DNA from: Fluviispira vulneris
GTDB lineage: Bacteria; Bdellovibrionota_B; Oligoflexia; Silvanigrellales; Silvanigrellaceae
DNA length: 64,000 nucleotides
Reading direction: 5' to 3'
NCBI RefSeq assembly: GCF_014281055.1
Contig: NZ_JACRSE010000001.1
Coordinates: 186,001-250,000, forward strand
Shown here: one piece after another, positions 51,963-52,888 of the stretch
How the letters are laid out: each line of letters opens with the position of its first letter
How positions within the stretch are numbered: position 1 is the stretch's first letter
Notes under the pieces: model-generated
The model's input: the letters and a program-made list of their open reading frames with translations, nothing else
The model's database searches: none
Told to the model about the DNA's origin: nothing
Program-made: the position numbers and the translations under genes

Positions 51963-52433
51963 ATGAAATTGTTTTTTACTATATTTTCGATTTTATTGAG
52001 CTTTTCTTCTTTTGCAATGCCATTAAAAAGAAAAGATATCAAAACAAATCGTCAGTTAACAAAAGAGCAGGTGGCCAATACATTGGAACGTGCTGGTTTT
52101 CCTCGTGAAATAGTACCAGTTGTCACCTGTATTGCTGAATTTGAATCAAATTTTAATCCTAAAGCGATTAATAAACACAACACGAATAACACCAAAGATC
52201 ATGGTTTATTTCAAATTAATGATATTTGGATGGCAAAATGTAAAATGTCGGCAAAAGATTTGCAAAATCCATTCATGAATGCCAGATGTGCTTTTAAAGT
52301 TTACCAGCAACAGGGATTGACGGCTTGGGTGACATATAAGAAATTTAAGAGAACTTGCCTCTCTTATCAAATTCCAAACTATAGCACAACTCATTTAGCT
52401 GACGTTATTGTGCAAAATAATCAGTTGATGTGA
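51963..52433 (+). CDS. Secreted c-type-lysozyme-like protein
   Basis: Secreted 156-residue protein with a signal peptide (MKLFFTIFSILLSFSSFA). The core resembles animal c-type lysozyme (GH22): TCIAEFESNFNPKAINKHN, then TKDHGLFQINDIW. Glu61 aligns with hen Glu35 and Asp79 with Asp52 (one insertion). Four Cys (56, 93, 109, 132) fall at positions matching the C30-C115 and C76-C94 disulfides, and AWVTY near the end matches AWVAW. The alternative is the GH23 lytic-transglycosylase branch of IpgF/IagB proteins, which share ESNFNPKAIN and the QIN motif. Either way it should cleave peptidoglycan. The ATG follows AAAGGA. A strong terminator follows, so it is a single gene. No immunity protein is visible. 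Confidence 0.72.
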   Translation: MKLFFTIFSILLSFSSFAMPLKRKDIKTNRQLTKEQVANTLERAGFPREIVPVVTCIAEFESNFNPKAINKHNTNNTKDHGLFQINDIWMAKCKMSAKDLQNPFMNARCAFKVYQQQGLTAWVTYKKFKRTCLSYQIPNYSTTHLADVIVQNNQLM

Positions 52434-52478
52434 TAGAGAATATCTGACATCTGACCTTTATTGATTTAGAGTATTATT

Positions 52479-52516
52479 AAAGGAACGCGCTCCGGCGTGT
52501 TCCTTTATTTTTTTTT
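52479..52516 (+). terminator. Rho-independent terminator after the lysozyme-like gene
   Basis: AAAGGAACGCGC pairs with GCGTGTTCCTTT (one G-T wobble) around a TCCG loop, then a T-run to 52516. Very strong. Confidence 0.95.
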
Positions 52517-52528
52517 ATGGAGAAAAAA

Positions 52529-52888
52529 ATGCAAAAAAATATTTTTTCCATTTTAGCAGGAATATTTAGTTTTATTGCTCTTGTTATAGGGGTATTAAAA
52601 TTATTTCCCCATTTTCAAAAAGGCTCACCCGATCAAACTTGGATTTTTTTAATAATCACAGTTTGTCCTTTAATGACTTTAATTTATTCAATCGCAGGGA
52701 CTGATGAAGAATCAAAGTCGGTTTCTCCCAATGCTTTTAGCCTTGTATTAACGGTACCTAGTATCGTAGCTGCATTGTACTTACATCTTTGGGTAAGTGT
52801 GTTTTGCATGCTTCTCGTCGCAATTTTTTCTTTAAGACAATTACTAAAAAATGACAATGAAAGTAATGGTAGCTCGCATCATCATTAA
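52529..52888 (+). CDS. Small multi-pass membrane protein, function unknown
   Basis: Not recognised. The 119-residue product has three or four hydrophobic helices: FSILAGIFSFIALVIGVLKL, WIFLIITVCPLMTLIYSIAG, SLVLTVPSIVAALYLHLW and VFCMLLVAIFSLRQLL, then a short hydrophilic His-rich tail. Start choice: ATG 52529 has GGAG 7 bases upstream; the ATG at 52517 is itself part of that GGAG site. It lies 18 bases before the HDOD gene, possibly cotranscribed with HDOD and CheR. Confidence 0.65.
   Translation: MQKNIFSILAGIFSFIALVIGVLKLFPHFQKGSPDQTWIFLIITVCPLMTLIYSIAGTDEESKSVSPNAFSLVLTVPSIVAALYLHLWVSVFCMLLVAIFSLRQLLKNDNESNGSSHHH

Follow-up and report, generated by a model that had tools for sequence, protein, structure and literature searches.

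Genomic Locus and Gene Product

The analysed window is a 64,000-nucleotide stretch of the Fluviispira vulneris genome (3.60 Mb, 98.9% complete). On its forward strand, which also carries the other window features described below, an ATG-initiated gene at positions 51,963–52,433 encodes a 156-amino-acid protein classified as a four-cysteine c-type-like lysozyme on the basis of the open reading frame list, Pfam matches, a phmmer search of PDB sequences and profile scores. The translation, read by eye, contains a predicted Sec signal peptide at residues 1–18 (51,963–52,016), in which a hydrophobic core is followed by SFA and which has no lipobox cysteine. The predicted mature protein has a calculated mass of about 16.0 kDa and a pI of 9.7.

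A pattern scan revealed a terminator-like hairpin with a 13-pair stem followed by nine T residues at 52,478–52,507, in the interval that separates the lysozyme gene from its neighbour. Since one such pattern was found against 0.3 expected, the terminator that the original prediction had ascribed to the gene is real as a pattern. The scan for sigma-70 promoters was uninformative (8 sites versus 4.7 expected). In each of the seven genomes with a standalone copy, the lysozyme gene is directly followed by one for a small hydrophobic membrane protein of 123 amino acids (52,517–52,888 in the window), with 44–79% identity and no clear match to any family. The lysozyme had also been said to lack an immunity gene; in agreement with this, a search of the whole genome for the lysozyme inhibitors MliC and Ivy, the two families considered, returned no match, and the adjoining gene is the conserved neighbour just described.

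Assignment to the GH22 Lysozymes

The c-type lysozyme model PF00062 (GH22) was the best of six Pfam matches, with 51.1 bits against a cut-off of 27 (E = 2.1e-13), followed by SLT_3 (PF18896; 47.3 bits, cut-off 27) and SLT (PF01464; 31.8 bits), the last being above its cut-off but covering residues 53–113 only; the GH22 model thus outscores the GH23 one. Searches of PHROGs and NCBIfam produced only weak matches, including NCBIfam IagB (24 bits; cut-off 208). The best PDB match found by phmmer was the digestive lysozyme of Musca, 3cb7 (E = 6.4e-14, residues 32–130), and another Musca digestive lysozyme entry, 2fbd, matched residues 33–127 with an E-value of 2.1e-12. Every one of the 14 PDB matches at E ≤ 1e-7 was a lysozyme, and with profile A1 c-type lysozymes accounted for all of the best 60 of 279 matches. 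The highest identity to an animal protein was 37%. Against a home-made profile of animal c-type lysozymes the domain scored 63.1 bits, while the best of 196 reported shuffles (200 made) reached 10.2. Taken together with the lack of PF00062 matches in all 14 control genomes, these results bear out the view that a bacterial protein of the c-type lysozyme kind is encoded here.

A home-made profile of cysteine-free SLT_3/FlgJ sequences gave the domain a higher score, 87.0 bits against 63.1 bits with the animal profile, and the same order of scores was obtained for 20 of the 24 aligned four-cysteine sequences, that of the window included. Because of these scores, and because the AU test described below retains a grouping with SLT_3/FlgJ sequences, the four-cysteine family is, as judged from sequence, intermediate: on one side stand the SLT_3 lysozymes of phages and bacteria, which are cysteine-free, and on the other the c-type enzymes of animals.

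Catalytic Residues and Cysteines

In a 49-row alignment the bacterial family was represented by 24 rows, comprising five standalone proteins of the genus, three fusions with an M23-like domain, three other members of Silvanigrellales or of the class, and 13 proteins of Myxococcota. As predicted, Glu61 (52,143–52,145) and Asp79 (52,197–52,199) occupy the columns of the catalytic Glu35 and of Asp52 of hen lysozyme; Glu is present in 24/24 and Asp in 23/24 of the bacterial rows. Gly81 and Gln84 are aligned to the hairpin Gly54 and Gln57, which together with Glu35 and Asp52 are given as c-type signature positions in PMC2976769.

Cys56 (52,128–52,130), Cys93 (52,239–52,241), Cys109 (52,287–52,289) and Cys132 (52,356–52,358) are the counterparts of hen Cys30, Cys76, Cys94 and Cys115, and cysteines are found at these four positions in all 24 bacterial rows. 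The proposal that the four cysteines lie at the sites of the C30–C115 and C76–C94 disulfides therefore holds for the 49-row alignment; its part concerning Cys132 depends on the alignment, since in the 72-row alignment Cys132 and hen Cys115 fall in different columns because the loop before this cysteine is three residues longer in the window protein. Cysteines at hen positions 6, 64 and 80 were found in none of the 24 bacterial rows, and position 127 lies outside the alignment. The nine animal rows, all taken from PDB entries and several of them C-terminally incomplete, have Cys64 and Cys80 without exception, and Cys6 is present in all eight that cover this position. None of the four family cysteines occurs in the five IagB/VirB1-type rows, and the six SLT_3 rows likewise have no cysteines at these positions. 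The Asp is absent from the three SLT rows and present in all five IagB/VirB1-type rows, so that its occurrence alone is no proof of a hydrolase.

On these sequence features the window gene is a member of a four-cysteine bacterial subfamily of GH22 distributed in Silvanigrellales and Myxococcota. Given the absence of Cys6, Cys64 and Cys80 from the bacterial rows, its product is classified as a GH22 relative outside the canonical eight-cysteine subgroup of animal c-type lysozymes.

Predicted Fold

The AF2 model of the window protein (pLDDT 87.8, pTM 0.83) was compared with known structures using Foldseek and VIA-align, and the matches listed were c-type lysozymes or complexes containing one; no GH23 structure was among the listed VIA-align matches, which does not mean that none exists. 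The predicted fold was closest to 2fbd (Z 16.2, rmsd 2.0 Å over 110 residues, 33% identity), and the proposed comparison with hen lysozyme yielded a Z of about 15. The protein is thus predicted to have the c-type lysozyme fold.

Phylogenetic Position

In the tree based on 72 rows, the four-cysteine bacteria and the animals form one clade with support of 98/99 against 31 phage, SLT_3 and FlgJ rows. Support was 98/88 after the eight cysteine columns had been removed, and only 64/29 in one alternative alignment of the 49-row set. Within the joint clade, a grouping of the genus proteins with the M23 fusions has support of 99/88, and one of the animals with Myxococcota and the other Silvanigrellales has 93/87 (84/84 without the cysteine columns). 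The animals themselves form a clade supported at 100/100, with no bacterial rows inside it. They were nested in the bacterial family in four trees, including both 72-row ones, and in three of the four variants of the 49-row set; in the fourth variant, from which the SLT and VirB1 rows were omitted, the bacterial four-cysteine rows make up one side of a branch with support of 17/0.

The AU test never rejected a topology in which the bacterial four-cysteine rows stand apart from the animals (p = 0.177, 0.318 and 0.306 for 37, 49 and 72 rows), nor one grouping the five rows of the window's clade directly with the animals alone (p = 0.178 and 0.179 for 37 and 49 rows), and it retained a grouping of this clade with SLT_3/FlgJ rows (p = 0.23, 49 rows). 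The special kinship of the four-cysteine bacterial family with the animal c-type lysozymes is well supported by these sequence comparisons. The animals fall inside the bacterial family, yet a position outside it also passes the AU test (p = 0.31), an outcome that allows either direction for any transfer; the bacterial family may be close to the source of the animal c-type enzymes.

The 72-row set contained 23 phage rows of the 35 read from 45 viral loci, 22 of these loci being left out. Also omitted from the trees were near-identical or duplicate loci (L003, L005–L007, L010, L012, L040–L043, L046, L047, L073 and L075), locus L011, which matches half of the model and has a long insert, and loci L022, L023, L026, L028–L032, L034, L036, L056, L044, L045 and L058, together with the Nitrospirota loci L059–L066.

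Distribution and Inheritance

Matches to PF00062 were found in 11 of 58 genomes of the window's phylum, including all eight of the genus. Seven of these eight carry the standalone lysozyme gene, and the eighth, a 72% complete genome, has an M23 fusion only. In the phylum of a Myxococcales MAG such matches occurred in 2 of 377 genomes, and in one order there in 12 of 183. The phylum of an actinobacterial MAG yielded one match in 396 genomes, below the cut-off, and that of a Nitrospirae MAG 17 in 395 genomes, four of them above the cut-off; the two aligned members from the latter phylum have none of the family cysteines. The description of GH22 as largely an animal family is fair, with the reservation that a table in the review PMC6403190 already lists PF00062 for three bacterial genera, Labilithrix, Frankia and Enterococcus, with the structure entered as n.d.

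With 80% identity Fluviispira multicolorata is the nearest named relative, ahead of Spirobacillus cienkowskii with 69%, which points to an organism of the Silvanigrellaceae kind; orthologues in the genus are 64–80% identical. All seven genomes with the standalone gene have the same neighbours, namely genes for a MutS-like protein, the 123-residue membrane protein and an HDOD protein; at loci L014 and L015 (12 kb each) these are followed further on by CheR, NDH-2-like and thymidine-kinase-like genes, the last two named from their translations. The G+C content of the lysozyme gene, 0.329, is close to that of the window (0.339). For two close orthologues dN was 0.022 and dS 0.60, dS values calculated by the NG86 method being saturated for several other pairs. 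The gene has been inherited vertically and kept under purifying selection in the genus.

Alternative Explanations of the Animal Likeness

The resemblance to animal lysozymes had originally been attributed either to transfer from a host or to an IagB/IpgF-type GH23 protein that has converged on, or shares ancestry with, the c-type enzymes. Transfer from an animal, for example an insect or a crustacean, would agree with fly lysozymes being the closest solved relatives and with the presence, among relatives of the genus, of Spirobacillus cienkowskii, a parasite of Daphnia. We nevertheless regard it as very improbable. Orthologues in conserved synteny in 7/8 genomes of the genus argue against a recent gift, the G+C content is native, Cys64 and Cys80, present in 9/9 animal rows, are missing, and identity to any animal protein does not exceed 37%; moreover, relatives occur in both Silvanigrellales and Myxococcota, and in most of the trees it is the animals that are nested among bacteria; no bacterial row enters the 100/100 animal clade.

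Even less credible is the idea of a lytic transglycosylase (GH23, of the type of IagB, IpgF, VirB1 and EtgA) with a chance likeness to c-type enzymes, despite the common Glu and Asp positions, the common xGLxQIN block, an SLT score above the Pfam cut-off and the weak match to NCBIfam IagB. An IagB-type plasmid protein, L054, does match c-type lysozymes as well, but its best PDB match is EtgA (84 bits), and the lysozymes follow at 34 bits over residues 46–99 only, against residues 32–130 in the window protein. The Glu–Asp–hairpin core alone can thus produce moderate lysozyme matches, and what decides is full-length coverage and the C-terminal half. All four IagB/VirB1-type plasmid proteins (L051–L054) score 72.6–89.1 bits with SLT and at most 21.8 bits with the PF00062 model, in one case without any match, which is the reverse of the pattern found here. 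The AU test rejects a union of the window's five-row clade with the IagB/VirB1 rows in all three data sets (p = 0.0009, 0.039 and 0.035 for 37, 49 and 72 rows), and the family cysteines occur in 0/5 of those rows. Membership in the IagB/IpgF/VirB1 group was rejected on the HMM scores, the cysteines and the AU tests, so that the result originally named as refuting, a firm place inside that group with cysteines common there, did not materialise; convergence of such a protein finds no support on the same grounds. Shared ancestry proved right in the wide sense, with the family placed between SLT_3 lysozymes, which are cysteine-free, and the animal enzymes. A further reading is that the protein belongs to SLT_3 (PF18896), known from phage tails and actinobacteria, and resembles animal lysozymes through deep common inheritance with no special kinship. 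The SLT_3 score of 47.3 bits, the preference of 20/24 family rows for the SLT_3/FlgJ profile, and the AW and NGSxDxGLFQIN blocks common to many phage proteins speak for this reading; the clade uniting four-cysteine bacteria with animals, strong in the 72-row trees with or without cysteine columns and weak (64/29) in one alternative alignment, and the rank of PF00062 as best Pfam model make it unlikely, though less so than the other two.

Fusions at Secretion Loci and the Proposed Function

Three proteins combine an M23-like domain with the four-cysteine lysozyme domain. On the Pigmentibacter ruber plasmid AP029160.1, the fusion gene (L039:3542–4330) is flanked by a gene with weak likeness to TrbI/VirB10 and by one for a VirD4-type coupling protein similar to TrwB/TraD. 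The second one (L127:7305–8060, genome G006) follows a TrbI-like gene, and both clusters resemble those of conjugation or type IV secretion systems; the third (L128:2495–3241, genome G001) adjoins type III secretion genes for the ATPase SctN and for SctV, the latter a fragment. Secretion loci of this kind are the usual place of an IagB or VirB1 transglycosylase, and the fused paralogues hint at work on the cell envelope.

The window gene probably encodes an exported c-type-like GH22 lysozyme of the bacterial four-cysteine subfamily that hydrolyses its substrate in the manner of the hen enzyme; homology and residue conservation indicate that the product should be an exported muramidase. After Sec export the disulfides C56–C132 and C93–C109 would form, a step that could be carried out by the DsbA-family protein encoded in the genome. 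Glu61 would then act as the general acid and Asp79 as the nucleophile or an electrostatic stabiliser, and the MurNAc–GlcNAc beta-1,4 bonds of peptidoglycan would be cleaved as by hen lysozyme, giving hydrolytic products rather than 1,6-anhydro ends. Five ordinary SLT proteins are encoded in the genome besides this lysozyme. The biological role is the least certain element: because the fused paralogues sit in secretion-type loci, we consider a cell-envelope muramidase that opens or remodels the bacterium's own wall more likely than an enzyme secreted for digestion or antagonism; the window gene itself has no secretion-type neighbours.

Comparison with Known Systems

The Musca domestica lysozymes 2fbd and 3cb7 share with the window protein the predicted fold, the 18-residue spacing of Glu and Asp, the sites of Cys30, Cys76, Cys94 and Cys115 and the AWxxY/W block. 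The window protein differs from these and other animal GH22 c-type enzymes in its low identity (37%), the missing Cys6, Cys64 and Cys80, a shorter loop past the catalytic hairpin, a bacterial signal peptide and a C-terminal tail. Domains of SLT_3 also possess the Glu, the Asp, the NGSxDxGLFQIN hairpin and a Trp near hen Trp108, but they have no conserved cysteines and usually occur in large virion or secreted proteins. The GH23 proteins IagB, IpgF, VirB1 and EtgA resemble the window protein as small exported domains with the Glu, the Asp and the QIN hairpin, and they reside in loci like those of type III and type IV secretion systems, where a paralogue from the window family, in fused form, is found as well; in contrast, the C-terminal half of the IagB/VirB1 group is of the SLT type, the five aligned rows bearing the motif [AC]Y[NH][AS] there, and the cysteines differ. 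DslA of Bdellovibrio bacteriovorus (PMC7511926) is another lysozyme-superfamily enzyme from the wider Bdellovibrionota; it is described there as closest to GH23, with a second catalytic Glu on strand 1 and, in its own numbering, two disulfides.

The bacterial GH22 entries in PMC6403190 have PF00062 in common with the window protein and, in the table concerned, are listed only, with no functional or evolutionary treatment. According to the relevant part of PMC12855814 (2026), goose-type lysozyme can be traced to bacteria, and the c-type is grouped with phage-type families. No study of a bacterial c-type-like lysozyme such as that of the window was found in the open-licence PMC text, where, besides the review table, an unrelated paper on a citrus pathogen came up. 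PF00062 in bacteria was thus known as a table row, and, as judged from this literature, the four-cysteine bacterial GH22 subfamily appears to be new.

Few enzymes have been studied as thoroughly as animal c-type lysozyme, and a bacterial family that has exactly two of its four disulfide pairs, and that groups with it with or without the cysteine columns, is a concrete candidate for its stem. One could tentatively hypothesise, as a possibility short of an expectation, that animal c-type lysozymes, and hence alpha-lactalbumin, go back by horizontal transfer to a bacterial stem, namely the four-cysteine enzymes of Silvanigrellales and Myxococcota, with C30–C115 and C76–C94 inherited and C6–C127 and C64–C80 added in animals, and that bacteria also recruited the domain, joined with an M23-like one, for wall opening in type III and type IV secretion, ordinarily the job of IagB or VirB1. 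The family makes the order in which c-type lysozymes gained their disulfides testable, and it offers both a natural c-type lysozyme with minimal disulfides and an example of a c-type-like domain encoded beside secretion systems.

Variation among Relatives

One Myxococcota protein, L049, has Lys at the Asp52 site and Ala at that of Asn59, and retains the Glu and all four cysteines; judging by these residues, it is possibly inactive or of changed mechanism. Other Myxococcota four-cysteine lysozymes (L048, L068–L071 and L073–L075) appear lipoprotein-like by eye, with a cysteine after the signal peptide, and many of them have in common a cysteine-containing C-terminal extension some 55 residues long. 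Lysozyme-like domains were also seen in Nitrospirae proteins (L025–L029), of which L025, the one scanned, matches SLT and SLT_3, comes close to the cut-off of the PF00062 model and carries an N-terminal Rod-binding domain, an architecture similar to that of FlgJ. The relatives on 45 viral contigs (L082–L126) mostly lack the family cysteines, and many lie within large open reading frames of up to 1,418 amino acids; their TMVAIAKAES and NGSxDRGLFQINSVH blocks are very like those of the Myxococcota enzymes.
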